Shown here: in pieces, positions 999 to 15,626 of the stretch
Layout: every line of letters begins with the position of its first letter
How positions within the stretch are numbered: position 1 is the first letter of the stretch
Assembly: GCA_031292555.1 (NCBI GenBank)
Contig: JARLGV010000051.1
Span: 62,001-126,000, forward strand
Length of the DNA stretch: 64,000 bases
Direction of reading: 5' to 3'
From: Fimbriimonas sp.
Lineage (GTDB): Bacteria > Armatimonadota > Fimbriimonadia > Fimbriimonadales > Fimbriimonadaceae
The notes under the pieces: model-generated
Seen by the model: the letters and a program-made list of their open reading frames with translations, nothing else
Database searches by the model: none
Told to the model about the DNA's origin: nothing
Position numbers and translations under genes: made by a program

Positions 999-3188
999 GT
1001 GAAAAGAATCGCTATCGGCGCCGGTCTATTGTGGTTGGTTTGCACCGCGGTGTCGTCGCTTGGCCCAACGAAGGGCTTTGAGCCGACCGCCACGATCACC
1101 CTGCAAGCCACAAGTGCCAAGCAGGCGCTGAAGGCGCTCAGCGACGCTTATCAGACTCGCTTGGAAGCCACTCCCCAGACAGCGGCCGAAACCGTCACGA
1201 TTCGCTTCAAGGCCGTCCCGCTTTCGGAAGCGATGAGGCGAATTGCAGACGCGGTCGACGGAAGTTGGAAGCAGGAGGGTGAGTCCTTTTTGCTGATTCG
1301 GACCGCCGACCAGCAACGGGCGGAGCGCAAGTCCGAGTTCGATCTAGACGTCGCCGGGATTCGCAAGGCGATTCAGAAGAGGGTCGAAGATATGGGCAAG
1401 ATGCAGGCATGGAACGCCGATGAGGCAGATAAGCTGGCAACGAAGGTCAAGAACCTCGTCAAGACATTCAATCCAAACGCCCAGCAGCAAGCATTCTATC
1501 GACAGGCGACCCAACTGAGTCAGGAGGCACCGATCGGCCGGGCAGTGTCCCAGATCGCTGCGATCATGGACCCCCAGGAGCTTGCCGCCGTACCGCCCTA
1601 CTATAAGACGGTCTGGTCTACGAATCCAACCGCGATGCAGCGTCCGTTGCCTGCCGCGGTCGCGCCCATCATCGAACAGTTCATCAGCAACCAGGCCCAA
1701 TGGGCGGCGGCCATCGAGAACCACCATTTGACCGCCCCCACCGTCGGAGGTACGACCTATTGGGTAGGTGATCTCGGCGACTTCCAGAACATGGAGTCCT
1801 CGGGCAAAGTTGAGGTCGTCTTGCTAACGGTTCAGCGATGGAATGAGTCGTCGTCGTTCAACTTCGAGCTTTCTGCTTACGACTCGAAGGGCAAGCGGAT
1901 CGCCCAGACCCAAAGTTCTCTGGGCAACATTGTCGAGAACTACATGGAGTCCATGAAGGACGTTCCGCCTCAGCCAGGTGAGAAAGGCATAACTCAGACG
2001 CCGGAGGCTGCCGAACTGCTCGCGTCACGCATGGCCAACCCAACTCAAAGCAGCAAGCCGATCTCGCCGGCCCTCCACGACGAGTTGATTCATCCCGAAT
2101 CGGTCGATCCACTCAGCTACTTTCTGTCGTCGTCGTTGATCCAGGCCGCCGAGTTAAAGGAAGTAAACATGGTCGCCTGCCTCACGGATAATGCGTTCTA
2201 CAGCACGTTCATGGGTACGGCAAAGGAGGTCCCGGTTGACCGATTCCTCAAGCGCCTCGAGTATTTCGACGAAGCGTCCAAGATTGCGGATGGCTGGCTA
2301 ACTCTCAAGCCGACTCGCCCTTACCGGAGCAGGACCAATCGAGTGGATCGTAAGGAACTTGGGAAATATCTGCGCCGGATTGAAGTCAAGCGCCCGCTGT
2401 CCATCGAAGAGCGAGCCGCATTTGCCCTCGCTCTGCCGGAACCCCAGGCGAATTACCTTCCAACCGTAATGGCATCCCTTGTCAAGGCTCGAAGCGAGGA
2501 CAACTTCGATAACAACATGCTGCGACTCTATGGTCTAACGACTCCGGAACAGCGGGCCAAGATGAGCTCATCGGGACTCCCGTTCGAAGCTTTGACCGAT
2601 CAACAGATGGAGTACGTGAGCCGTATGGTCTACGGCGTGAACTCCAATATCCAGTTCATGCCTCCTCCGCAAGCGCGAAACGCTCAGCAGATCGATTTCA
2701 ACCTCTACTACAACGGACTGCTACGCGAACCGACCGAATCTCTGCCGACCGGCATCCCCCGCCGAGGCGTCATCAAACTCAAGAGTGACTCATCTTACGT
2801 CGTGATGGCGGGCCCCACAAGGAACCAGCCGTACGATATGGCGCCACGCGAGTTGGACGCCAACTCACTTGCGTGGCAGAAGTACTCACAGGAGCGAATC
2901 GATTTGTTTCCTTGGATGAGCGACGAAATGCAGAAGGTGGACCTCACTCGCCTGCAATTTGGAAAACGGCTGCAGATTACGATTACGCTGCAGTTCACCC
3001 CGTCTCTGTCGATCGGGCAGTCGTTCGACGAGCACGATCCGGACCAATTCCAGACCGTGACAATCGACGACCTGAGCGGAGACTTCAAGAAGCAGTTCAC
3101 CGACGCGTACGCCAATCTCGCTCAAGCCTATGCTTCGGCAAAGCCTGGCACGTTCAACCGAGGTGGGGGGGCGAACCCGCCCCCCTAG
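999..3188 (+). CDS. secreted protein with STN-like N-terminal domain, function unknown
   Basis: 729 residues. I chose GTG at 999 over GTG at 993 because GGGGAG at 988-993 then lies 5 bases upstream. A signal peptide (K-R, then IAIGAGLLWLVCTAV) is followed at about residues 30-105 by a segment with the pattern of the secretin/TonB short N-terminal (STN) domain: ITLQATSAKQALKALSDA, then FKAVPLSEAMRRIADAV. The remaining 600 residues are not recognised; they are rich in charged helices and end in a Gly/Pro tail. No secretin barrel follows, so it is not a secretin. The extreme 3' end encodes a GC-rich hairpin, described separately as a terminator. Confidence 0.7.
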   Translation: MKRIAIGAGLLWLVCTAVSSLGPTKGFEPTATITLQATSAKQALKALSDAYQTRLEATPQTAAETVTIRFKAVPLSEAMRRIADAVDGSWKQEGESFLLIRTADQQRAERKSEFDLDVAGIRKAIQKRVEDMGKMQAWNADEADKLATKVKNLVKTFNPNAQQQAFYRQATQLSQEAPIGRAVSQIAAIMDPQELAAVPPYYKTVWSTNPTAMQRPLPAAVAPIIEQFISNQAQWAAAIENHHLTAPTVGGTTYWVGDLGDFQNMESSGKVEVVLLTVQRWNESSSFNFELSAYDSKGKRIAQTQSSLGNIVENYMESMKDVPPQPGEKGITQTPEAAELLASRMANPTQSSKPISPALHDELIHPESVDPLSYFLSSSLIQAAELKEVNMVACLTDNAFYSTFMGTAKEVPVDRFLKRLEYFDEASKIADGWLTLKPTRPYRSRTNRVDRKELGKYLRRIEVKRPLSIEERAAFALALPEPQANYLPTVMASLVKARSEDNFDNNMLRLYGLTTPEQRAKMSSSGLPFEALTDQQMEYVSRMVYGVNSNIQFMPPPQARNAQQIDFNLYYNGLLREPTESLPTGIPRRGVIKLKSDSSYVVMAGPTRNQPYDMAPRELDANSLAWQKYSQERIDLFPWMSDEMQKVDLTRLQFGKRLQITITLQFTPSLSIGQSFDEHDPDQFQTVTIDDLSGDFKKQFTDAYANLAQAYASAKPGTFNRGGGANPPP
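3166..3185. terminator. bidirectional hairpin inside the 3' end of a coding sequence
   Basis: GGGGGGCG (3166-3173), loop AACC, CGCCCCCC (3178-3185) form a perfect 8-bp stem ending just before the TAG of the upstream gene. The convergent gene stops at 3192, 3 bases further on, so both transcripts would read through this hairpin. There is no long T-tract, so intrinsic termination is inferred from position and stem strength only. Confidence 0.5.
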
Positions 3189-3191
3189 AAC

Positions 3192-4319
3192 CTAGTTGAT
3201 CCAGTCGGCCACGAAGATGTTCGTTTCGTGGGGCTTGCTGCCGTATCGGTTGGAAGCAAACACGAGCTTCTTCCCGTCGCGGCTGAACATCGGGAAACCA
3301 TCGAACTCGGGCGCGGTGGTGATTCGCTCGAGGCCGGTGCCGTCCAAGTTGATCATGTAGATGTCGAACTCCCGACCTTGAGGATCGGCGAAGTTCGTGC
3401 TGAAGATGACCCGTTTGCCGTCGGGGTGAATAAACGGCGCGAAGGAGGCTCCGCCCAGATGCGTTACCTGCCGCTTGTGGCTGCCGTCCGGATTCATAAC
3501 CCAGATCTCGAGCTTGCCAGGTCGAACGAGGCTCTGGTGCAGCAGGTCCAGATAGTCCTTCTTCTCCGTATCGTTCGTGACGGCCTGCCGGCGATAGGCC
3601 ACCGTCTTGGAGTCCCAACTTACGAACGGACCGCCGTCATATCCGATCTCGTCGGTAAGCCGCTTGATATGCGAGCCATCAAGGTTGGCGCGGTAGATGT
3701 CTAGATCACCGTCGAAACTGCCGGTGAAGACCATGTACTTGCCGTTCGGGGCGATCGTCGTCTCCGCCACGTAACCGTCCTTCTTGATGATCGGAGTCAG
3801 TTCGGAGCCGTCCGGCTTGGCCCGATAAAGCGCGAAGTCGGGATTAACCATCCACACATAGCCTTTGCTGTGGTCGATGGGCGCTTGCGGACCGGGGTTT
3901 CGCTCGTGGGTGGAACTGAAGTAGATGTGCTTGCCGTCCGGCGCGAAGTAGCTGCAAGTACATCTGCCTTTGCCGGTGCTGACGAGGTGCTTGTTCGACC
4001 CGTCCGCATTCATGATGAATATCTGTTCATCGGGATATTGGGGCTGCGCCGTCTGATAGATCAGTTGCTTGCAGTCGGGGCTCCAATACGCCTCGGCATT
4101 CTCGCCGCCAAAGGTCAGTTGGCGTACATTCTTGAGGTGCTTTTCCCCCGGGAACAGAGGGACAAGCCGCGAGTCCGGAGCCTGACCGCGGCCCAGGACG
4201 AAACATATCACTAGAGGAAGCATGAAGCCATATGATGCGAAAGCGACCCGATTGTTCCCTCTAGCCTCCTGATGAACTGATTGCGAATCTGATGCTTTTT
4301 CGCTGATCGCTTTCAGCAC
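3192..4319 (-). CDS. PD40/TolB-like beta-propeller protein
   Basis: Up to 375 residues. Repeated blades read as 'SPDGK.I.FSS' followed by 'DIYRANLDGS..RLT' (for example ADGSNKHL, LDGSHIKRLTDE, PDGSHKRQVTHL, LDGTGLERIT), the hallmark of PD40/WD40-like propellers related to TolB. A hydrophobic stretch MLPLVICFVLG near residue 33 suggests export. The start is uncertain: GTG at 4319 opens the frame, but a good AGGAGG at about 4270-4265 is not followed by a usable start at normal distance, and ATG (MLPLV) lies further in. Such proteins act as periplasmic or surface protein-binding scaffolds; the partner is unknown. It is convergent with the STN-like gene. Confidence 0.75.
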   Translation of the reverse strand: MLKAISEKASDSQSVHQEARGNNRVAFASYGFMLPLVICFVLGRGQAPDSRLVPLFPGEKHLKNVRQLTFGGENAEAYWSPDCKQLIYQTAQPQYPDEQIFIMNADGSNKHLVSTGKGRCTCSYFAPDGKHIYFSSTHERNPGPQAPIDHSKGYVWMVNPDFALYRAKPDGSELTPIIKKDGYVAETTIAPNGKYMVFTGSFDGDLDIYRANLDGSHIKRLTDEIGYDGGPFVSWDSKTVAYRRQAVTNDTEKKDYLDLLHQSLVRPGKLEIWVMNPDGSHKRQVTHLGGASFAPFIHPDGKRVIFSTNFADPQGREFDIYMINLDGTGLERITTAPEFDGFPMFSRDGKKLVFASNRYGSKPHETNIFVADWIN

Positions 4320-4332
4320 AATAACGACATTT

Positions 4333-5310
4333 TTACCGGGAGGCCCACTCGATCATCCTATCGAATAACCCATCGACTCGCGCGTCGACCTGTTGCCGGG
4401 CCGGATCGGCGAGATGCCAATTGACGATCTCGCGCGCTCCAATCGAGAACGGTACGGTGCACTGGAACTCGGGAACCGCCCGTTTGATCTTCGAATTGTC
4501 GAAGATCGAGCTGTTCGCTTTGTCTCCCAATAGGCCCGCTTCCCACTCCGGCACGAATCGCCCGATCACTTCGGAGGGAACATGGACCTTCTTCGCCTCG
4601 ACGCCGGCTGCTGCCGCCACGAGGTCGTAGATCTGATCCCACGTGAGCCATTCGTCGGACGTGATGTGGTAGGACTCGCCAATCGCATGGGAATTCCCCA
4701 GCAAACCGATGAAGCCCTTGGCGAAATCCGAATGGTGAGTCAGCGTCCAGATCGACGTACCATCGCCGAGAACGACGACCGGCTTCCCAGCCCGCATGCG
4801 CTCGACGACGGTATATCCCCCCTCGAAGGGCAGCAACGTCTTGTCGTACGTGTGGGAGGGGCGCACGATTGTATAAGGGAACTTGCGCTTCTGGTAGGCA
4901 TCGACGAGCATCTCCTCACAGGCAATCTTGTTTCGCGAATACTGCCAATGTGGGTTGTCCAGCAAGGTGGATTCAGTGATCGGGAGCGTCGACGGCGGAG
5001 TCTGATAGGCCGAAGCGGACGAAATGAACACGAATTGCCCCGTCTTGCCCTCGAACAGATCGATGCCGTTCTGAATATGGTCGGTTGTGAAGGCGATCCA
5101 GTCGACGACCGCATCCCACGTGTGTCCTTTCAAGGCGGCTTCTGCCGATGCGCGGTCGCGAATATCGCCGTTCAGCACCTTCACCCCCTGGGGCGTTGGC
5201 CGGTCGCTGTGCCCGCGATTGAGCAGGTAGAGGTCGATCCCCTTGGTGAGGGCCAATGGAGTGCAAGCCGAGCTGATGATTCCGGTGCCACCGATGAAAA
5301 GGACCTTCAT
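4333..5310 (-). CDS. NAD(P)-dependent epimerase/dehydratase, extended SDR family
   Basis: 325 residues. It begins MKVLFIGGTGIISS, a glycine-rich Rossmann nucleotide-binding loop, followed by LLNRG at the end of strand beta2 and by a conserved SSASAY segment. The catalytic pair is visible as YSRNK (Y-x-x-x-K) near residue 124, and VRPSHTY follows as in sugar-nucleotide epimerases. The C-terminal half carries substrate-binding features (YHITSDEWLTWDQIYDLVAAAAG). The substrate cannot be told; family members act on nucleotide sugars or related small molecules in the cytoplasm. It sits 13 bases upstream of the PD40 gene on the same strand, so the two may be co-transcribed. Confidence 0.85.
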   Translation of the reverse strand: MKVLFIGGTGIISSACTPLALTKGIDLYLLNRGHSDRPTPQGVKVLNGDIRDRASAEAALKGHTWDAVVDWIAFTTDHIQNGIDLFEGKTGQFVFISSASAYQTPPSTLPITESTLLDNPHWQYSRNKIACEEMLVDAYQKRKFPYTIVRPSHTYDKTLLPFEGGYTVVERMRAGKPVVVLGDGTSIWTLTHHSDFAKGFIGLLGNSHAIGESYHITSDEWLTWDQIYDLVAAAAGVEAKKVHVPSEVIGRFVPEWEAGLLGDKANSSIFDNSKIKRAVPEFQCTVPFSIGAREIVNWHLADPARQQVDARVDGLFDRMIEWASR

Positions 5311-5426
5311 GTCGCTATTCTGGCGGATTTACAGAGCAAGAGACTTGGGTCTGTCGGTCGGGATGAAACTCGCGCCAACGGGACAGGAATCGGACAGTCG
5401 CTTGAGTTCGTCTGTAGCTAGGACCC

Positions 5427-7301
5427 TTGATCACACCGAACACTGCAAACACAAAGAAAGAGCGATTCTTCACGAACTGGCGGATTGGTCTGATCGGCGT
5501 CTTTGCGTTGACGGTTGTCCTTTACCTGCCATCGCTCATGGGCTTCCCGTTCTGGGACGACCCCGGCCTGATCAACGGCGAGGAGTTCGGGGGCAACACG
5601 ATCGCCGCCGCGCTGACTCACTCCCTCGGGAATTACTACCGCCCTCTGACGTCGCTATCGTTCGTGGTGGATACCATCTACGCCAAGGGCAACCCGTTCT
5701 TCTACCACCAGACGAACATCCTGTTCCATGCCTTTACCGCCGTTCTCATCAGTTGCCTGGCGCTCTTGATCACAAAGAGCCGAGTCGCCGGCATCCTCTC
5801 GGGCGCGTTCTTTGCGGCTCAGCCGCTGCAGCTTGGGGCGGCCGCTTGGATCGGCGGACGGACCGACGTGCTTTCCTCGTTCTTCCTCCTGGGTTTCGTT
5901 ACGGCCCTGGTTCTCTACTTGCGGTCGCCCAAGCCCGGTTGGCTCGTCGTCTCGGTCGTTTCCTTCGTATTGGCGGCATTGGCCAAAGAGCAGGCGATCG
6001 CGATTCTGCCCGTCATTCCGCTCTCGGTGTTTGTCTTTGGAAGCGGTAAGTGGAAGGACGCCGGCAAGCTGTGCATCCCCTTCGGCACGGTCACTGTCCT
6101 CTACTTGCTTCTTTGGGTCACCCACGCGCCACTCCCACCGGCGGCCCATAACACTCTGATCGGCACCGTTACCCTAGCCTTGCGGACGGCAGCTTTCTAT
6201 GGCCTTGGCCTACTTGTCCCCAACCGGCCGTCGCTTGTGACGTTCACACTGGAGAACTACGCGACCGTCCCGTGGATACTTTTCGGAGCCGTGCTGGTTG
6301 CCGTCGGTGCGCTGCTCCTGCGAATGGCGTGGCAGCGAAATCGACCGGTCGCCTTTATCGCGGTTTGCGCCCTTCTGGTCTACATCCCGATCTCGAATTT
6401 CCCAACGATTCCGTCGATGGTCATCGCCTCGTACCGGCTAGGCGAGTCGGGAGCATTCGCCGCCTGCCTGTTCGGCATCTTGGGAGCATGGGCTCTGTCG
6501 ACAAAACGGCAAGCTCTGGGTTGGATCTTGGGCGGCAATCTGGTTCTCGGTCTTGCCGTAACTTGGTGGGGCGTGCATCTATGGCTCACTCCCATGACGT
6601 TCTTTTCGCACGTCGCAAGGACGGATCCGCACTTCATCGTGGGCGACCAGTTCTATGCCAAAGTGCTCGAGACCGCCGGCCGAACGGCGGAGGCGGAGGC
6701 ATGCACGGCCAAGACGGTCGACTGGATCTTTGGTACACCCAACTGGATCGACTTGATCCAGCGGAAGCGAAGTTTGGCAATCGATGAGGACGTGATGCAG
6801 CGTCTTCGCACCAACCTGGGCGTGCCGGTCATTCCGGCCGTCGGCACGTTCATAGGTGAAGACGCGTTCTATCTTGCTCGACTCAACCAGATGGAGAAAG
6901 CCCAGCACATCGCCGCCGACGCACTCGTGATCGCCCCGCGCGACCCTTGGCTGAATTACCTGTACGGGAGGATGACCCTCCACACCGATAGGAGGAAGGC
7001 AATAGGCTACTGGCGAACCGCCATGATGCTTGCACCCGGCTATGCCGATTGCGCCGCTTCCTTGGCTCACGAATTGGTGGTCGACAAGCAGTTCAGGGAA
7101 GCAGCAACTCTGCTCGACAAGGCCCTCGAACCGGGCGACTATCGCGGCGGCGCCTGGCTCGACCTGGCGGATGCCAAGATCGCCCTTGGCGACCCATCCG
7201 GCGCAACCGCCGCGCTAGATAATGCTGAGAAGGCTCTGTTCGCTCCAGCCAAGGCGGATATCCAGAAAAGGCGCGGCACGATCCGGTCGCTTCGCCGGTA
7301 G
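5427..7301 (+). CDS. polytopic membrane protein with C-terminal TPRs, glycosyltransferase (GT39/TMTC)-like
   Basis: 624 residues starting at TTG, with an AGGACC-like ribosome binding site. Around ten hydrophobic segments fill residues 20-400. The first luminal loop contains FWDDPG and then NYYRPLTSLSF, the arrangement seen in GT39/TMTC-type O-mannosyltransferases, where the acidic pair binds the lipid-linked donor. Residues about 470-620 form helical TPR-like repeats (WLNYLYGRMTLH, YADCAASLAHELV, GAWLDLADAKIALGD). The expected role is transfer of a sugar from a polyprenyl phosphate outside the membrane, with the TPR part binding acceptor or partner. It stands at the head of the polysaccharide region. 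The activity is inferred from topology. Confidence 0.7.
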   Translation: MITPNTANTKKERFFTNWRIGLIGVFALTVVLYLPSLMGFPFWDDPGLINGEEFGGNTIAAALTHSLGNYYRPLTSLSFVVDTIYAKGNPFFYHQTNILFHAFTAVLISCLALLITKSRVAGILSGAFFAAQPLQLGAAAWIGGRTDVLSSFFLLGFVTALVLYLRSPKPGWLVVSVVSFVLAALAKEQAIAILPVIPLSVFVFGSGKWKDAGKLCIPFGTVTVLYLLLWVTHAPLPPAAHNTLIGTVTLALRTAAFYGLGLLVPNRPSLVTFTLENYATVPWILFGAVLVAVGALLLRMAWQRNRPVAFIAVCALLVYIPISNFPTIPSMVIASYRLGESGAFAACLFGILGAWALSTKRQALGWILGGNLVLGLAVTWWGVHLWLTPMTFFSHVARTDPHFIVGDQFYAKVLETAGRTAEAEACTAKTVDWIFGTPNWIDLIQRKRSLAIDEDVMQRLRTNLGVPVIPAVGTFIGEDAFYLARLNQMEKAQHIAADALVIAPRDPWLNYLYGRMTLHTDRRKAIGYWRTAMMLAPGYADCAASLAHELVVDKQFREAATLLDKALEPGDYRGGAWLDLADAKIALGDPSGATAALDNAEKALFAPAKADIQKRRGTIRSLRR

Positions 7302-7340
7302 CCGGCAGGGTAAACAGGCGTCGGACCGGCTCGGGAATCA

Positions 7341-7394
7341 CCCGTGAAAGCTTCCTTTTCAGCCCGTGAAACTGTTTCTAGTTTGAGGTCAAAC
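7341..7394 (+). promoter_or_regulatory. candidate operator region upstream of the sugar isomerase gene
   Basis: Between the TPR membrane protein and the isomerase start at 7434 lie a direct repeat CCCGTGAAA (7341-7349 and 7363-7371, 22 bp apart, two helical turns) and two adjacent palindromes: GAAACTGTTTC (7368-7378) and GTTTGA-GG-TCAAAC (7381-7394). This is the texture of a regulator binding region; no cognate regulator is adjacent. The sequence pattern is seen directly; the role is inference. Confidence 0.35.
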
Positions 7395-7433
7395 AATGCC
7401 AAATCTTGAGGTGGATGCGGTAAACCTGGAAGC

Positions 7434-8285
7434 ATGTACATCGGTCTGAGTCCAGGCGCAATTGGCGTCCGCGTCGAGAATTTATCGCAGAGAATCGCAG
7501 CCGCTAAGAACCACGGGTTTGCCGGAGTTGAGATCGATGTCCATGAAGTTGCCAAGCTCGTCGAAGAGGGTGGCGCTGAAAAGATCATCGGCCAATTTCA
7601 AGAAGCCGACGTCATCGCATGCGGCTGGGGACTGCCCACCGATTGGCGGTCGTCTGAGGAAAACTGGAAGCGCGACCTCCAGGAGCTCCCTAAGCTCGCC
7701 AAGGCGGCGGCCGAGATCGGCTGCTATCGCGTCTCAACCTGGATCATGCCTGCTTCGAACGACTTGGAATTCGACGCGAATCTGAAGTTTCACGTCGAGC
7801 GGTTCAAGCCGATCGCCGAGATCGTAGGTGAGTACGGCCACCGTCTGGGACTCGAGTTCGTCGGGCCCAAGACCCTCCGGGATAAGTTCAAGCACGAGTT
7901 CGTGTACGACCTGCCGGGCATGATGAACATGGCCAACTGGATCGGTCCGAATGTCGGACTGCTGTTGGATAGCTGGCACCTCTATACGTCCCATGGCTCG
8001 ATTGCCCAGGTCGAAGAGCTTAGCGAAACCGACATCGTCTACGTCCATGTTAACGACGGCCCCTTGGGCGTACCGGTCGACGAACAGCTTGACGGAGTGC
8101 GTGGCTTACCTGGCGAAACCGGCCTGATCGATATGGCGGGATTCCTTGGCGCCCTCAAGCGAATCGGCTATTCCGGTCCCGTCGTTCCCGAGCCGTTCAA
8201 GAAAGAGCTTGGCGATTTGCCCGACGATTCCGCAAGACTGGATCTGGTCGCCGAGAGCATGAGGAAGATTTTCAACCTGATTTAG
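7434..8285 (+). CDS. sugar phosphate isomerase/epimerase (xylose isomerase-like TIM barrel)
   Basis: 283 residues. ATG at 7434 follows a GGAAG ribosome binding site. The sequence follows the AP-endonuclease-2/xylose-isomerase-like TIM barrel: LGLEFVGP (metal-ligand Glu on a strand), LLLDSWHLY (Asp and His ligands), IVYVHVNDG (strand with His) and YSGPVVPEPF (last strand with Glu). These four positions normally bind one divalent metal for aldose-ketose or epimerase chemistry, or inositol catabolism. The exact substrate is unknown. It lies between two membrane proteins of the polysaccharide region but has its own regulatory-looking upstream segment. Confidence 0.85.
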   Translation: MYIGLSPGAIGVRVENLSQRIAAAKNHGFAGVEIDVHEVAKLVEEGGAEKIIGQFQEADVIACGWGLPTDWRSSEENWKRDLQELPKLAKAAAEIGCYRVSTWIMPASNDLEFDANLKFHVERFKPIAEIVGEYGHRLGLEFVGPKTLRDKFKHEFVYDLPGMMNMANWIGPNVGLLLDSWHLYTSHGSIAQVEELSETDIVYVHVNDGPLGVPVDEQLDGVRGLPGETGLIDMAGFLGALKRIGYSGPVVPEPFKKELGDLPDDSARLDLVAESMRKIFNLI

Positions 8286-8462: not shown

Positions 8463-9935
8463 ATGGTATTCAGTTCCCAGATTTTCGCGTTCTACTTTCT
8501 GCCCCTTTCACTAGCCGTTTACTATTCCCTGTATCGCGCGTCTCAACGTGCCCGCAATCTCTGTCTGGCCGTCCTCGGCTACATCTTCTATGGATGGGTG
8601 AACCCCAAGTTCATCTTCCTCATGTTCGGAACCACGTTCCTGGACTGGCTCCTAAGCCTCGTGATCGCCTATAACTCCTGGCGGTTTTGGTCTCAATGGA
8701 AGGGCGTCCTCGGCGAACTGCCCAAGGCGGAACGAACCAAACGTCAACGAACGGCGCTCACGCTGTCGATCGTTTCGAACCTGTTGATGCTCGGGTTCTT
8801 CAAGTATTTCAACTTCTTCCTCGACACCTACAATGGAGCCGTCGTCGCATCGGGCGCCCCGCAACTGCATTGGGACACGTTCTTTCGCGTAGTCCTGCCG
8901 TTAGGGATCAGCTTCTACACCTTTCAATCGCTGAGCTATATCATCGACGTCTATCGTGGCGACGCGAAGGCGATGCGCAACTTCGTCGACTTCTCGTGTT
9001 TCGTGTCGATGTTCCCGCACCTGGTCGCCGGTCCGATCCTAAAGTTCTCCTTCCTGGCCGGACAGATCGAGCACCGTGCCCTCACCCTGGACAAGTTCTC
9101 GCGCGGTTCCGCGTTTTTTATGCTGGGAATGGCCAAGAAGATTCTGTTGGCGAATCCGTGCGGGAAGGTCGCAGACATCGCCTTCAATGCCCATTCGGTC
9201 CATCCCGCCGACGCCTGGTTTGGGGTGGTCAGCTATGCCTTCCAGATATTTATCGACTTCAGCGCCTATTCCGACATGGCGATCGGCCTCGGCCTCATGT
9301 TCGGGTTTGTGTTTGCCAGGAACTTCGACTCCCCCTACCGCTCCGCGTCGATCGGAGAGTTCTGGCGCCGCTGGCACATCTCGCTCTCCACGTGGCTTCG
9401 CGAATATCTTTATATTCCCCTCGGCGGCAACCGAAAAGGCAAGGTTCGAACCTATATCAACCTCTTCCTCACGATGCTCCTTGGCGGTCTTTGGCATGGC
9501 GCGTCGTGGAACTTCGTCATATGGGGCGGAATCCACGGCACGTCACTCGCGGCTGAGAGGGGCCTAGGCGACGATCACGCCTACTTCAAACTTCCCAAAT
9601 TGCTTCGCGGCGCCATCACTTTCTTCATCGTCCTCGTCGGCTGGGTGTTCTTCCGGGCCGCCGATTTCCCGAAGGCGGCAACCTACCTGGCCTCGATGTT
9701 CGGACTGGGCCCCCGCCACGCGGAAGCCTCTCTCATTGCCGGGATCCTATACAAGCCGTACTACCTTCTGGCGTTTGGCCTCGCCGCCGTCATGATCTGG
9801 TTCGTCCAAGACACGTGGGAGTGGACTCAGAACCTGACGAAAGCCAAGTCGCTCTGCTGCGTCGGCGTCTTCCTCGTCGCCATTGCCGTCCTCGTAACTC
9901 AAGAATACAACCCGTTCATCTACTTCATCTTCTAA
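8463..9935 (+). CDS. MBOAT family O-acyltransferase, AlgI-like
   Basis: 490 residues with about ten membrane segments. It starts with FSSQIFAFYFLPLSL, the usual start of AlgI-type membrane-bound O-acyltransferases. The conserved active-site region reads LLGGLWHGASWN with His345 as the expected catalytic histidine; upstream are RRWHISLSTWLREYLYIPLGGNR (shown in parts: RRWHISLS, YIPLGGNRKG) and DFSAYSDMAIGL, all family signatures. In alginate and cellulose systems AlgI/WssH passes acetyl groups across the inner membrane to periplasmic SGNH acetyltransferases. Two such SGNH proteins follow directly (gap of 4 bases), so an O-acetylation unit for an exported polysaccharide is strongly suggested; the polymer is unknown. 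Confidence 0.93.
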   Translation: MVFSSQIFAFYFLPLSLAVYYSLYRASQRARNLCLAVLGYIFYGWVNPKFIFLMFGTTFLDWLLSLVIAYNSWRFWSQWKGVLGELPKAERTKRQRTALTLSIVSNLLMLGFFKYFNFFLDTYNGAVVASGAPQLHWDTFFRVVLPLGISFYTFQSLSYIIDVYRGDAKAMRNFVDFSCFVSMFPHLVAGPILKFSFLAGQIEHRALTLDKFSRGSAFFMLGMAKKILLANPCGKVADIAFNAHSVHPADAWFGVVSYAFQIFIDFSAYSDMAIGLGLMFGFVFARNFDSPYRSASIGEFWRRWHISLSTWLREYLYIPLGGNRKGKVRTYINLFLTMLLGGLWHGASWNFVIWGGIHGTSLAAERGLGDDHAYFKLPKLLRGAITFFIVLVGWVFFRAADFPKAATYLASMFGLGPRHAEASLIAGILYKPYYLLAFGLAAVMIWFVQDTWEWTQNLTKAKSLCCVGVFLVAIAVLVTQEYNPFIYFIF

Positions 9936-9939
9936 CGCC

Positions 9940-11886
9940 ATGAGCGACGCCCAACCCACCAAACCGACGCGGAGACTTCACAAGACTCGTGAAGAGGAAG
10001 CGGACCGGTGCCTGAATCACACGAGCTTCTCACCGGGAAGCCAGGCGATTCTGGCCGGGTTCTTTCTGCTGATCGTCTTCGGCATACCGTTGCTCCAGCA
10101 TGTCGTCGAGATTCGGCGAAATGTCGATGCACGGCAACATTGGAGCCCCAAGGGCGGAGAGCCCGAGCCCAAGCTGCTTCCTCAGGTCTACGACGTCCTT
10201 TCGCTGTTGCCGTCCAAGGAGCGAATCGACGAGGCGAAGGGATTCTGGGGCTACTGGTCGCTGATCCCGAGCGGCGAGAGCATCAGTGCCTTCGAGACAT
10301 CGCTCAAGGAAAACTCGATCCTGACCAAAGCCCTGCTGGCCCCCGCCCAAGCGGCCATGAGCGGCACGCTGGGGGTTGGAAACGAGAAGGCCTATTGCGG
10401 CCGTGACGGATGGCTTTTCTATCGGCCTGACGTCGAATACCTGACGTCGGACGGCTTCCTCGACCCCAAGCGACTATCCTCGCGCGCCCGGGGTGCGACG
10501 CCGATCCAACCCGATCCGGTGGTCGCGATCCTAGATTTGGGCTCGCAATTGCGCGAGCGCGGAATCTCGCTCGTCGTTGTGCCGGTAACCACCAAGCCGA
10601 TGATCGAGCCAGACATGCTGGCCGGCCCCTCGGCTGCCGGCATCGAACTCCAAAACCCCTCGTTCGGCAAGTTTGAGAGTGCGCTTCGCGCCGGCGGCGT
10701 TACTGTGTTCGACCCGACCCCCGTCTTGCGGGAAGAGGAGGCTAGCACAGGCCATCGGCAATATCTCACGACCGACACCCACTGGACGCCCGAGGGGTTG
10801 GAGGCGGTCGCCCAAGGGCTCGCCGCGATACTCGAAACCAAAGGGATGCAGCCCAAGACGCACTCGAACGCCTACTCGTCCAAGCGACAGCCTGTTGCAA
10901 ACGTGGGCGACATCGCGGAGATGCTAAAGCTCCCGCCAGGCCAAACGCTATTTCCCAAGCAAGAAGTACTCGTCAGGCACGTTTCCAATCCCGACGGATC
11001 AGACTGGAAGCCGGACCGCCGCGCAGACGTTCTGCTCCTGGGAGACAGTTTCTCGAACATCTACTCGGTGGAAAGGATGGGATGGGGCCGCAGCGCCGGA
11101 TTGGCCGAGCAACTGAGCTACTCGCTGGGTCGGCCGGTCGATACGATCGCAATCAACGCCGGCGGCTCGTTCGCCTCGCGGCGGGCCCTCGCTCAGCAGC
11201 TTGCCCAAGGCGTCGACCGGCTCGCCGGAAAGAAGGTAGTCGTCTACGAATTCTCGATGCGCGACCTGACGGAGGGCGATTGGAAGCTCATTCGATTGGC
11301 TCATCCCGCTCCCACGTCCCAACCTGTCCCACCGGCGCCGAAGCAACCGGCGGTGAACCCCCAGGGACCAAACACTCCAAGCCAAACGGTAGTCAAGCCT
11401 ACTCAGCCGGCTAATCAAGCCACTCAGGTAACCACCCCCGTGAAGCCGACTGCCCAACCGCCTACCAAGCCCCTGACCGGTACGAAGCCGCCGGTCGCCA
11501 ACCCGGCGAAGGGACTGAAACCTCCTGCCAACCCGCCGTCGCACCCGGCGAAATCGGAGGGATTGGTCGTTGCCGGGCGGATCGTTGCCAAGGCAAATGC
11601 TCCCAAGCCGGGCTCGGTACCCTACAAGGACTGCTTGATCGCGCTGCAGATCAGCGACCTGAAAGTCACGGGAGGCAACATTAAGGGTCCCAATATCGTT
11701 GTGTACGTGTGGGGAATGAAGGATAACCAACTGGTCGACGGAGCGTATTCGGCCGGGCAGACAGTCACCATCAAGCTGGTCCCATGGGCGTCCGTCGACT
11801 CCAAATACGGCGGACTCAACCGACAGGAACTGGATTCCGACGATTCGCTGTCTTGGGAAGCGTTCTGGGGCGAACTAAACAGATGA
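9940..11886 (+). CDS. AlgJ/AlgX-like SGNH acetyltransferase with Pro/Thr-rich linker and extra C-terminal domain
   Basis: 648 residues, starting 4 bases after the MBOAT stop. A single membrane anchor lies at about residues 32-50. The SGNH-like AlgX/AlgJ domain shows GRDGWLFY (about 148), DTHW (Asp279-His281) and LLGDSF (Ser370 as nucleophile), which supply the Ser-His-Asp set that moves acetyl groups to polysaccharide. Residues about 455-545 are a linker very rich in Pro, Thr and Lys. The last 100 residues are a separate domain that resembles the C-terminus of the LamG-like protein at 14652-15626 (see findings). It is probably periplasmic and membrane anchored, receiving acetyl from the MBOAT partner. 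Confidence 0.85.
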   Translation: MSDAQPTKPTRRLHKTREEEADRCLNHTSFSPGSQAILAGFFLLIVFGIPLLQHVVEIRRNVDARQHWSPKGGEPEPKLLPQVYDVLSLLPSKERIDEAKGFWGYWSLIPSGESISAFETSLKENSILTKALLAPAQAAMSGTLGVGNEKAYCGRDGWLFYRPDVEYLTSDGFLDPKRLSSRARGATPIQPDPVVAILDLGSQLRERGISLVVVPVTTKPMIEPDMLAGPSAAGIELQNPSFGKFESALRAGGVTVFDPTPVLREEEASTGHRQYLTTDTHWTPEGLEAVAQGLAAILETKGMQPKTHSNAYSSKRQPVANVGDIAEMLKLPPGQTLFPKQEVLVRHVSNPDGSDWKPDRRADVLLLGDSFSNIYSVERMGWGRSAGLAEQLSYSLGRPVDTIAINAGGSFASRRALAQQLAQGVDRLAGKKVVVYEFSMRDLTEGDWKLIRLAHPAPTSQPVPPAPKQPAVNPQGPNTPSQTVVKPTQPANQATQVTTPVKPTAQPPTKPLTGTKPPVANPAKGLKPPANPPSHPAKSEGLVVAGRIVAKANAPKPGSVPYKDCLIALQISDLKVTGGNIKGPNIVVYVWGMKDNQLVDGAYSAGQTVTIKLVPWASVDSKYGGLNRQELDSDDSLSWEAFWGELNR

Positions 11887-12914
11887 TTCAAGCACTAGCA
11901 TTCATGATTGCATCAGGCGGCGCCCTGGCACGGCCTCCGCTCGCCGGACCCGCGGACTTCCGTGCGGCCATCTCGCAACTCGTCGACAAGGCCACGAAGG
12001 ACGCCTCCAACGTCGTTCAGGGAAAGGACGGCTGGCTGTTCTTCGTGCCCGAACTGCACCACCTGAGCGTGAGCGCCTTCTGGGGCGATGCGGCGGCCAA
12101 AGTGAGCAAGGCGGCGAACCCCGCGTATGCCGACCCGCTCCCCGCGATTCTGGATTTCAAGTCGCAACTCGACAAGAAAGGGATCACGCTTTTGGTTGTG
12201 CCCGTCCCGGCGAAGGCCTCCATCTATCCGGACAAGCTGGTCGACGGCGCCGCCAATACGGCAGAGGCGCGCCTCGACTCGGCCGATGCGGAATTCCTCC
12301 AGATGCTCAAGGGGGACTCGATTCCGGTGATTGACCTCACGCCGGACTTTCTCGCTTACCGGGCGGCCCACCCGGCAAATCCGCTCTACTGCCAGGAGGA
12401 CACGCACTGGTCCGGATACGGCATCGCGTTGGCGACCGACCGAATCGCAAAGGCCATCCAGGCACAGTCCTGGCTCTCCGGCGTAGAAAAGGCGAAGCTG
12501 ACAAGCGCTCCCCTGACCATCACCGCATCCGGCGACTTGGTCACGATGCTGACGGGGGCGAAACCGGCGCCCGAACGAATTGCCTTGACCAAGGTCACCG
12601 ACGCCAAAGGAGCGGTCGTAACCTCATGGCGCGAGAGTCCGGTTGTGCTGCTGGGTGATAGCCACAACCTGATCTACTCGATCGGAGACGACATGCTGGC
12701 GGTCGGATCGGGTTTGCCGGAAAACCTCGCGGCCAAGCTCGGATTCGCACCTGACGTCGTCGCGGTCCGCGGATCGGGAGCGACGCCGGCGCGAGTGAAC
12801 CTCGCTCGCCGTGGAGACAGCCTGGCGGGCAAAAGAATCGTCGTATGGTGTTTCACCGTGAGGGAATTCACCGAAGGGCAAGGGTGGCGCAAAGTCCCCG
12901 TCATCAAGCCATGA
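11883..12914 (+). CDS. second AlgJ/AlgX-like SGNH protein
   Basis: 343 residues. The true start is ATG at 11883, overlapping the upstream TGA (ATGA), which signals translational coupling. An N-terminal hydrophobic stretch IQALAFMIASGGALA is a likely signal peptide. The same motif order as the upstream protein is present: GKDGWLFF, DTHW (Asp173-His175) and LLGDSH (Ser260). It is shorter, lacking the Pro-rich linker and C-terminal domain. Two SGNH enzymes next to one AlgI-like protein recall the AlgJ/AlgX pair in alginate acetylation, where both are needed for acetylation. Whether this copy is an acetyltransferase or an acetylesterase cannot be told from motifs. Confidence 0.82.
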   Translation: MIQALAFMIASGGALARPPLAGPADFRAAISQLVDKATKDASNVVQGKDGWLFFVPELHHLSVSAFWGDAAAKVSKAANPAYADPLPAILDFKSQLDKKGITLLVVPVPAKASIYPDKLVDGAANTAEARLDSADAEFLQMLKGDSIPVIDLTPDFLAYRAAHPANPLYCQEDTHWSGYGIALATDRIAKAIQAQSWLSGVEKAKLTSAPLTITASGDLVTMLTGAKPAPERIALTKVTDAKGAVVTSWRESPVVLLGDSHNLIYSIGDDMLAVGSGLPENLAAKLGFAPDVVAVRGSGATPARVNLARRGDSLAGKRIVVWCFTVREFTEGQGWRKVPVIKP

Positions 12915-12922
12915 ACAGAATC

Positions 12923-12937
12923 GCTGGCGGAGCCAGC
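12923..12937 (+). other. short intergenic hairpin
   Basis: GCTGGC-GGA-GCCAGC is a perfect 6-bp stem with a 3-base loop in the 46-base gap between the second SGNH gene and the esterase-like gene. There is no T-tract; it may protect the upstream mRNA 3' end or attenuate read-through. Confidence 0.4.
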
Positions 12938-12960
12938 AAACCTAGGGATCGTCGACATTA

Positions 12961-14655
12961 ATGCGGAATTTTTATTTCTTTATCCAACTCAGAACAGCAA
13001 TTTGCCTGACAGTTGCGTCACTTGCCGTCTGTTCGTTTGCGGCCGGCTCCGGTAGCCAGAGCCTCGATCAGATCGGGATGTTCGATCTCAAAGCGATTCG
13101 CCAAGTCCCTCTGGACGTCGAGACACTTTCGAAAACGAAGCAAGGTGACGTAACCATCGAGGAGGTCCGGTACACCTCCCTTCCCGGAGTTCGGATCTAC
13201 GCGATCCTCACCTACAAAGAGAGTCTGAAGGCGGCGCCCGGATACATGGTCGTCGAGCGATTCCGGGTCAAGCCCTTGGTCGCGGAAGCGAAGAACGGGT
13301 TCTTTGGCATCGCGGTCGCGCCCCCCACCGGCAATACGGACCCTACCAAGCACGACTCGGTAGGTGGCCCCAAGTACAAGCAGCCATTCAGCATCAACCA
13401 GCAGTTCCTGGAAGATAAAAATGAGAGCTACATCTACCAGTACACGGTTGCCCTCCTAAGGATGCTGGACTACTTGTCGACTCGGTCCGAGGTGAATCTC
13501 GCGACTACGATGGTTTCCGGTTACTCATGGGCGGGAACGATGGTCGGCTTGCTCCATGCGCTGGACGACCGGCCGAATTGCTACTTCATCTATCACGGTC
13601 TCGGCTATCACACCGACGAGAACGGCCTTTCCGGCGGCGTACCTGCCGTGATGAGCCGGAAGCTCTATGAGATGTACTGCCCGGCCGCCTATGCACAGTA
13701 CGGGACAAAGCCGCTATGGGTCGGCGTTGCCCTCGACGACTACTACACCAAAATCGACTCGATCATGGAGACCTACGATCACCTCAAATGCGAAAAGGTG
13801 TTCGTGTACGTACCGAACCGCCATCACACCGAGACGGCGCGGCACGAATTCAAGGGCTACGTGAACTGGGAATCGCACTGGCAGTTCGGCCTCGACAAGC
13901 CCAGTTCGATCAGTGACGGGACGGTGAAAGCGAGCAACGGGAAGCTAGTCTACACCTGCTCAATCGACGCCAAAGACGCGATCGTGCACTCCGAGATCTT
14001 CGTCAGCTATGGCAAGGCGGGGGACTGGATGGGCCGCACTTGGCATCGGTTCGCGCTTGTCAAAAGAGGCGACGGCTACGAGGCGGAGATTCCGGTCTAT
14101 AGCCCGTCGGTTCCCCTCTACGTCGTGGCCCAGATCGAGACTGAGAAGTTCGGCACCGTCGGCAACGGTATCCAATACGTCGAGCCCACGGCCCTCGGAA
14201 TCGCCGCATTGAACGCCGCCTATCCCAGCGCACTCTTCGATCCGTCGCTCAAGGACGACCTTTACATCCGCACTGGCGATATCACGTGGAGTGACGACGG
14301 GCCGGAAGGTAAGGGCTCCGCGATCGTATCGCCCGGACAGGAGGGAACGATCACCTTCCAGAACATCGACGGTGACCTCTGGGAGGGCAAGCAAGTTCTA
14401 GACATCTGGCTCAAGGGCGACGGTCAACCCGGTCCCATCCGCGCCTATTTTGCCTCGCACCCCAACTACTATGTCGAGATCGGAAAGGGGAACACGACGG
14501 AAATCGACCTCGTGCCCACGGGATTCAAGTTCGCGAACGGTTGGAAGGAGTACGCAATTCCGCTCCGCACAATCAAGAACCTCTCGCAAGTGTCTACTCT
14601 GTTCCTCGACGCGAACAAGCGCAACCTTCAGATCGGCCCCATCACCCTCCGATGA
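12961..14655 (+). CDS. secreted alpha/beta-hydrolase (esterase-like) with C-terminal beta-sandwich
   Basis: 564 residues with an N-terminal signal peptide (LRTAICLTVASLAVCSFAAG). The first two thirds read as an alpha/beta hydrolase: the nucleophile elbow GYSWAG has Ser189, an acidic residue follows in GVALDDYYT, and a histidine lies in NRHHTET. This resembles PhoPQ-activated/acetyl-xylan-esterase-like hydrolases. The last 120 residues (from about GTITFQNIDGDLWEG) look like a carbohydrate-binding beta-sandwich. In context it could remove acetyl or other ester groups from the polymer modified by the upstream enzymes; that is inference. Its stop overlaps the next start (ATGA at 14652). Confidence 0.7.
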   Translation: MRNFYFFIQLRTAICLTVASLAVCSFAAGSGSQSLDQIGMFDLKAIRQVPLDVETLSKTKQGDVTIEEVRYTSLPGVRIYAILTYKESLKAAPGYMVVERFRVKPLVAEAKNGFFGIAVAPPTGNTDPTKHDSVGGPKYKQPFSINQQFLEDKNESYIYQYTVALLRMLDYLSTRSEVNLATTMVSGYSWAGTMVGLLHALDDRPNCYFIYHGLGYHTDENGLSGGVPAVMSRKLYEMYCPAAYAQYGTKPLWVGVALDDYYTKIDSIMETYDHLKCEKVFVYVPNRHHTETARHEFKGYVNWESHWQFGLDKPSSISDGTVKASNGKLVYTCSIDAKDAIVHSEIFVSYGKAGDWMGRTWHRFALVKRGDGYEAEIPVYSPSVPLYVVAQIETEKFGTVGNGIQYVEPTALGIAALNAAYPSALFDPSLKDDLYIRTGDITWSDDGPEGKGSAIVSPGQEGTITFQNIDGDLWEGKQVLDIWLKGDGQPGPIRAYFASHPNYYVEIGKGNTTEIDLVPTGFKFANGWKEYAIPLRTIKNLSQVSTLFLDANKRNLQIGPITLR

Positions 14656-15626
14656 TCTCCTTCACTCTCGCCGCATCGCTCGTCCTCTACGGATTCTCGC
14701 AAGGGAATCCGGCCCCCGGCCCCCACTGGCCGCTGGTCCCGGATCCCCTCTTTGCGGTGAACGGGATCGCCCACGGCGAGGCCGGATTGCAGCATGTCTC
14801 GGTCGCCGTCCGGAATGACGGCGCAACCGTGGTGAAGCCGGCGGAGCTCAAAGACCCGACCAGTTCCGAGGTCACGCTTCCGCCCGGGCTGTCCCGTTGG
14901 CGGACGATCGAGGTGATGTTCACGTCCGCCGCCGACGGCACCCTCCTTTCCTTCGGGGACCTTTCTGTTGCGGTCAAGCAGGGACGCCTCTGGTTTGCGC
15001 GAAACGGGCACATGTGGGATATTGCCCCGCTCAAAGCGGACAGCCTGAACGACGTCCAACTGGTCACCCATCTGGACTCCTATTTGGCGTACGTCAACGG
15101 CCAGCGCTCGGCCCAGACGATCACGGTACCGGCGGCCATCGTTCCGATGCAAGTTGGACTGGATACCTGGAAGGGCTCGGTGATCGGGGTGTGCGGCTAT
15201 GCCAAGGAGCTATCGGAAGACGAGGTCGTCGCCAACCTGCACGCCGGCCAGGCGGTCGCCAAGGCGGTCTACGCGGATACCAAGACGGTGACGATTGAGG
15301 CCGAGCTTGGCGCTTTCACCGCCGTTCCCGAACTGAGCCAGATCGCTCCGTATCGGAGTGCGTTGGTCGCCGAGGAGTACAAAATCCTTCGCATCTCCAA
15401 AGGCCGGATGGCGGCCCTCAAAGAAGGCATGAAGGTCCGAATCTTCCGATGGGGCCTCAAGGCAGGCGACAAAACCGACATTGCCAAGATCAAAACCGGC
15501 GACAAGGCGACAATGGTCATCCAACCCCTAAGCGCCGATCCGAAGTACGAAAAGGAGTTCCAGGTCGACACTCTGGACGGCGACATCTCCGCCCTCTATT
15601 TCGTAGACGTAACCCCAGCGCCGTAA
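14652..15626 (+). CDS. secreted LamG/concanavalin-like protein with locus-specific C-terminal domain
   Basis: 324 residues. The start at 14652 overlaps the previous stop as ATGA, so it is coupled to the esterase-like gene. A signal peptide (MISFTLAASLVLYGFSQG) precedes a LamG-like jelly roll: WRTIEVMFTSAADGTLLSFGD, LNDVQLVTHLDSYLAYVNGQ and QVGLDTWKGSVIGVCGY are the usual strands of that fold, seen in laminin-G/pentraxin-like carbohydrate-binding domains. The final 110 residues form a separate domain related to the C-terminus of the SGNH protein at 9940-11886. The likely role is binding the exported polysaccharide or assembling the acetylation complex; this is inference. Confidence 0.65.
   Translation: MISFTLAASLVLYGFSQGNPAPGPHWPLVPDPLFAVNGIAHGEAGLQHVSVAVRNDGATVVKPAELKDPTSSEVTLPPGLSRWRTIEVMFTSAADGTLLSFGDLSVAVKQGRLWFARNGHMWDIAPLKADSLNDVQLVTHLDSYLAYVNGQRSAQTITVPAAIVPMQVGLDTWKGSVIGVCGYAKELSEDEVVANLHAGQAVAKAVYADTKTVTIEAELGAFTAVPELSQIAPYRSALVAEEYKILRISKGRMAALKEGMKVRIFRWGLKAGDKTDIAKIKTGDKATMVIQPLSADPKYEKEFQVDTLDGDISALYFVDVTPAP

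Follow-up and report, generated by a model that had tools for sequence, protein, structure and literature searches.

An operon of Fimbriimonas sp. (Armatimonadota) carries one and the same C-terminal domain on two otherwise unlike proteins. The operon lies in a 64,000-nucleotide stretch of the genome (contig JARLGV010000051.1, positions 62,001 to 126,000 of the forward strand; hereafter the window, to whose positions our coordinates refer unless a locus is named), and the two proteins are an AlgX/AlgJ-type SGNH protein, encoded directly after an MBOAT membrane O-acyltransferase, and a LamG-like protein. On sequence comparison, the last ~110 residues of the two proteins (tails A and B) are homologous. 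A first-pass annotation made from the letters alone had proposed one unassigned domain behind two unlike N-terminal domains, and we agree: by our profile searches, the tail represents a family that is so far unnamed and has no Pfam-A or NCBIfam model. We consider it about an even bet that the tail is an exported, OB-like accessory module of SGNH-type acyl-transfer and esterase systems that positions the polymer. The two carriers and their parts are as follows:

9940-11886, forward strand: AlgX/AlgJ-type SGNH protein with tail A, 648 amino acids (aa) (PF16822, E 1.9e-32)
11287-11559, forward strand: Pro/Thr-rich linker leading from the SGNH domain to tail A (composition: 25 Pro in 92 residues)
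11560-11883, forward strand: tail A, predicted OB-like domain of the AlgX-borne subfamily (BLASTP, hhalign, AlphaFold2, tree)
14652-15626, forward strand: LamG-like exported protein with a predicted ConA-like lectin fold, 324 aa (AlphaFold2 model and Foldseek)
15279-15623, forward strand: tail B, predicted OB-like domain of the LamG-borne subfamily (BLASTP, hhalign, AlphaFold2, tree)

The annotation had matched the two tails by eye, and the open reading frames (ORFs) and coordinates that it used are correct. BLASTP of tail A against tail B gave 28% identity over 68 columns, with an E value, for this single comparison, of 2e-6. When six LamG-borne and five AlgX-borne tails of genus-level relatives were compared with hhalign, the score was 34.8 (P 1.2e-5), and the best of 200 column-shuffled controls reached 19.5; with wider sets of relatives the score rose to 74.2 at P 3.9e-13, and no shuffle exceeded 18.3. 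The HMM-HMM comparison that the annotation had suggested thus places the tails well above shuffled sequences. The identity of tails A and B in the wide alignment is only ~20%, a level at which chance, or the shared composition of two unrelated β-rich ends, might be suspected. Against this stand the shuffled controls, the wider profile comparison, the equal predicted topology of the two tails, and the tails of lipoproteins, which are intermediate and bridge both types. We regard the probability of a chance resemblance as negligible, the shuffles and the AlphaFold2 predictions together ruling it out.

AlphaFold2 modeled tail A with a predicted local distance difference test score (pLDDT) of 90.9 and a predicted template modeling score (pTM) of 0.84. 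In the model of the full-length 14652-15626 protein, the 10-residue blocks of tail B mostly had a pLDDT of 88–96, with 76 at the very end. Compared by element order and profile alignment, not by coordinate superposition, the two models are alike: both have the order E-E-E-h-E-H-E-H-E, and tail B has one additional 4-residue helix between strands 1 and 2. The difference in fold that the annotation had named as evidence against a shared domain was therefore not seen. The strand order of the model fits a five-stranded OB barrel with a helix between strands, although match scores are weak (Z ≤ 6.2), and the structural neighbors of tail A given by VIA are nearly all OB folds, among them the PolC OB domain (Z 6.2), agrin NtA (Z 6.0), PriB, SSB, RecO, TIMP-2, and meteorin NTR. 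The models point to an exported OB-like domain of ~105–115 aa.

A profile search of PDB chains returned no relative of the tails, by sequence, among solved structures, and none of 31 members of the tail family had a meaningful match in Pfam-A or NCBIfam. Membership in the NTR/TIMP family, which the structural neighbors had raised, was rejected on sequence and cysteines: none of the 31 tails matched an NTR/TIMP model of Pfam at E values up to 1, and with no cysteine in tail B and one in tail A, the tails are without the conserved NTR disulfides. The loop residues P, PY, G, and G are conserved in tails of both phyla in which the family was followed.

These phyla were Armatimonadota (291 genomes) and Acidobacteriota (297 genomes), the second of which was searched because a scan of genome contigs with a narrow tail pattern had returned four loci, one of them in Acidobacteria. 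Among the Armatimonadota, 26 of 291 genomes were positive with the tail profile and 35 of 291 with PF16822 (AlgX-type). AlgX-type proteins were present in 25 of the 26 genomes with a tail and in 10 of the 265 without one (Fisher 5e-27); kinship among genomes inflates such P values, and the fairer count, by genus, was 19 of 20 tail genera against 9 of 136 others (1e-16). Of the 43 tails, 31 shared a contig with an AlgX-type domain no more than 10 kilobases (kb) away, and at least two of the other 12 adjoin an MBOAT or AlgX-type fragment on short contigs (L055, L065). The Acidobacteriota search was positive in 11 of 297 genomes, and the 10 that matched strongly all have the tail beside MBOAT and/or AlgX-type genes (one example is locus L072). 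The two-carrier layout of the window is found at four acidobacterial loci (L091, L094, L097, and L098), and their second carriers are long proteins, some with PKD-LamG and some without a Pfam domain. Genomes with only tail A or only tail B occur in both phyla. A plasmid collection contained no relative of the tail, save one nonsignificant match in a catalase. The annotation's proposal to look for other tail proteins beside MBOAT genes has been productive: the tail recurs in two phyla, mostly beside MBOAT and AlgX-type genes.

In a maximum-likelihood tree of 50 tails with a midpoint root, all 13 AlgX-borne tails fell into one group (19 rows, support 97/82) and all 17 LamG-borne tails into another (24–25 rows, support 100/99), with both phyla represented in each; the base between the two sides had a support of only 90/65. 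Because the tails group by carrier across two phyla, and not by locus or phylum, the tree identifies tails A and B as ancient, carrier-specific paralogs. The same grouping rules out a recent duplication of the tail inside this operon.

The carriers comprise AlgX-type, LamG, and PKD-LamG proteins, one PD40-bearing protein, short lipoprotein-like proteins, and stand-alone secreted domains. With respect to the AlgX-type gene, the tail is either a fused domain or the product of a separate, often lipoprotein-like gene directly alongside; the short lipoprotein-like tail proteins have Pro-rich stretches, and their genes adjoin the AlgX-type gene. At one acidobacterial locus (L099), a 1248-aa ORF beside an MBOAT gene fuses AlgX, LamG, and a LamG-type tail, which indicates that the two carriers are functionally linked. 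A different fusion is seen at locus L052 (5449-8253), where a 935-aa protein consists of two tandem AlgX-type domains and a tail and so unites the two SGNH genes that are kept separate in the window.

The tail is also found with SGNH enzymes of another type. At locus L102 (G189:C9), a GDSL-type SGNH hydrolase that ends in the tail (2581-4011) is encoded divergently from a 1065-aa LamG-tail protein (4738-7935), and no MBOAT or AlgX-type gene was noticed on this 10.7-kb contig. The source genome itself has a third tail, a stand-alone secreted protein of 129 aa (G000:C79:10236-10625; L015) whose gene is divergent from a GDSL-like gene, and the pair of stand-alone tail (129–130 aa) and GDSL-like hydrolase recurs in G020 (L017, 8783-9175) and is thus kept in two species. 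The annotation had taken the tail for a module that serves in docking or binds a glycan and is specific to the acetylation machine of the operon. Its tie to MBOAT and AlgX-type loci holds in two phyla, but the exclusive wording is too narrow, since the tail is also borne by a GDSL-type SGNH hydrolase and stands alone beside GDSL-like genes. What the tail loci have in common is not MBOAT but an SGNH enzyme, in many cases accompanied by a LamG protein.

The other genes of the operon are:

8463-9935, forward strand: MBOAT membrane O-acyltransferase, AlgI/PatA/DltB-like (PF03062, E 4.4e-26)
11883-12914, forward strand: second AlgX/AlgJ-type SGNH protein, without tail (PF16822, E 4.3e-29)
12961-14655, forward strand: exported α/β-hydrolase-like protein (PF10142, PhoPQ_related, E 8.7e-4, under the cut-off)

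The MBOAT protein ends in ...NPFIYFIF, and FIYFIF conforms to FXYXXF, the acyl-shuttle motif demonstrated in PatA (PMC12148441). The 9940-11886 protein has a membrane anchor, an SGNH domain (~153-439) with the motifs DTHW (279) and GDSF (368), a Pro-rich linker (~450-541), and tail A (541-648). Its linker is Pro-rich sequence alone, unlike that of the AlgX-type proteins of some relatives (L012, L013, L014), where FlgD-like Ig repeats (WDGKD..G..V..G.Y pattern) lie between the SGNH domain and the tail. The second AlgX-type gene probably starts at an ATGA overlap with the preceding stop (11883-11886), and its product has the motifs DTHW and GDSH; the DTHW and GDS motifs of both proteins fit the D-x-H and Ser of the AlgJ/AlgX triads (PMC4148444). 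As far as motifs and domain matches can tell, the features of an MBOAT-SGNH acyltransferase are present: an MBOAT domain, an FXYXXF motif, and adjoining AlgX/AlgJ-type SGNH proteins with D-x-H and Ser. Both PF16822 matches of the source genome fall in the window. A second MBOAT gene of this genome (G000:C19:118592-119176) lies on a contig that has no AlgX-type protein.

The LamG-like gene starts at an ATGA overlap with the hydrolase stop (14652-14655). The N-terminal part of its product matches ConA-like lectin domains in Foldseek at E ~1e-6 (sialidase lectin domains, CBM40, laminin LG4-5); the protein has no Pfam LamG match of its own, and a Laminin_G_3 match is present in relatives with its layout. 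The α/β-hydrolase-like gene is, in relatives, a partner of the LamG-tail gene, and its product may act as an esterase on the same polymer. Relatives encode one to three tandem copies of this protein (L016, L019, L020), and in G189 and G190 its gene adjoins LamG-tail genes away from MBOAT.

A function for the tail is suggested by Pseudomonas aeruginosa AlgX, in which a C-terminal carbohydrate-binding module (CBM) behind the SGNH domain is presumed to hold the polymer at the active site (PMC4148444, PMC9734138). In the operon, MBOAT would charge the Tyr of its C-terminal FIYFIF motif with an acetyl group, which the periplasmic AlgX-type SGNH protein or proteins would then receive and transfer to an exported polysaccharide. 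Tethered by its flexible Pro-rich linker, tail A would take the role of the AlgX CBM and keep or steer the polymer at the SGNH active site. Tail B, which follows the LamG lectin domain, would recruit its lectin-like carrier, as a second protein, to that polymer. Here we infer a polysaccharide as the substrate, acetyl as the group, and the polymer as the ligand of the tail. The position of the tail after the SGNH domain, the lectin partner, the occurrence in a second SGNH lineage, and the single-tail genomes favor a common ligand such as a glycan, and the pairing of a tail-bearing GDSL-type SGNH hydrolase with a LamG-tail protein leaves an SGNH enzyme and a presumed glycan as what the loci have in common.

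Several points weigh against a polymer ligand. For OB domains, proteins and nucleic acids are ligands as common as glycans, and the structural matches of tail A are individually weak (best Foldseek E 0.039; VIA Z ≤ 6.2, in the tool's common range). A promiscuous CBM might also turn up on ordinary glycoside hydrolases or lyases, but no such carrier of the tail was seen in the genomes examined. Furthermore, AlgF, a noncatalytic partner in alginate acetylation, mediates protein-protein contact without binding the polymer (PMC10641220). Protein docking is the main rival and a serious one. In this reading, tails A and B would bind each other or share a protein partner, which might be the SGNH enzyme, MBOAT, or a component of the export apparatus. 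The AlgX-type enzyme, the LamG protein, and MBOAT would thereby be assembled into a single complex in the periplasm or at the surface, much as AlgF links AlgJ and AlgX. Docking could explain most of these observations too, including the strong restriction of tails to SGNH loci, the carrier-specific paralogs, the fusion or adjacency of the tail to AlgX-type genes, and the separate tails on lipoproteins; many extracellular OB/NTR folds bind proteins (NtA and TIMP-2 are among the structural neighbors), and AlgF provides a precedent (PMC10641220). However, an obligate A-B heterodimer is unlikely, since tail A or tail B occurs without the other in several genomes, and the GDSL/LamG locus has the same layout without MBOAT or AlgX, which leaves only the SGNH enzyme as a common partner. 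We rate docking as a real possibility, though less likely than not.

We think it quite unlikely that the tail has no specific ligand and acts as a cap with a structural or protective role, such as a spacer, an aid to retention at the surface, or a shield against proteases. Its place at the extreme C terminus behind low-complexity linkers would suit a cap, as would the small secreted or lipoprotein-like proteins in which it occurs by itself, but the loop residues kept across two phyla, the stand-alone form itself, and the persistence of two carrier-bound subfamilies point to a specific surface.

Comparison with known systems shows both likenesses and differences. The tail resembles the AlgX CBM (residues 348-463) in its position directly C-terminal of an AlgX-type SGNH domain, in its MBOAT-dependent acetylation locus, and in its size; it differs in sitting behind a long Pro-rich linker, in its predicted OB-like fold, and in having further carriers (LamG proteins, lipoproteins, and GDSL hydrolases). 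No AlgX chain was among the PDB matches of the tail profile, and AlgX was not listed by VIA, although its absence there does not exclude homology. Like AlgF, the tail would be a noncatalytic periplasmic accessory of an MBOAT-SGNH system, and the separate tail genes adjoin AlgX-type genes in a comparable way. AlgF consists of two tandem eight-stranded β-sandwich domains (PMC10641220); the tail, in contrast, is modeled as a single OB-like domain of ~110 aa that has about five main strands, and in many cases it forms part of the enzyme itself. The exported OB/NTR domains of extracellular proteins (agrin NtA, N-TIMP, meteorin NTR, and complement C345C) have a similar OB-like barrel arrangement, but they show no sequence match to the tails, which are without NTR disulfides. 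Agrin likewise combines an NtA-type domain with LamG domains. With PatA-PatB, AlgI-AlgX, and DltB-DltD the operon shares an MBOAT with a C-terminal FXYXXF motif beside an AlgX-type SGNH protein with catalytic motifs, but it has, unlike them, two AlgX-type proteins, an α/β hydrolase, and a LamG-tail protein. In a literature search, we found no description of the tail module for these three systems, no paper that connects MBOAT and LamG in the context of exopolysaccharides or deals with acetylation loci in Armatimonadota, and, for MBOAT, SGNH, and OB fold together, only a study of the lipocone superfamily.

More broadly, and with a confidence somewhat short of even, we propose that this previously unrecognized family of OB-fold modules is a shared targeting element of SGNH acyl-transfer and esterase systems. 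It would have been attached separately to the AlgX-type lineage (with MBOAT) and the GDSL-type lineage (without MBOAT), in each case with a second copy on the partner LamG lectin. Carrier-specific paralogs would have persisted across phylum-level distances, and enzyme and lectin would thereby meet on the same polymer. How MBOAT-SGNH systems recognize and hold their polymers is poorly understood beyond alginate and peptidoglycan. An unnamed domain that marks the enzyme, its partner lectin, and small lipoproteins offers a way to find missing components of these systems in phyla that have received little study, and the tail, as a small soluble unit, is suited to direct tests of glycan binding and complex assembly.

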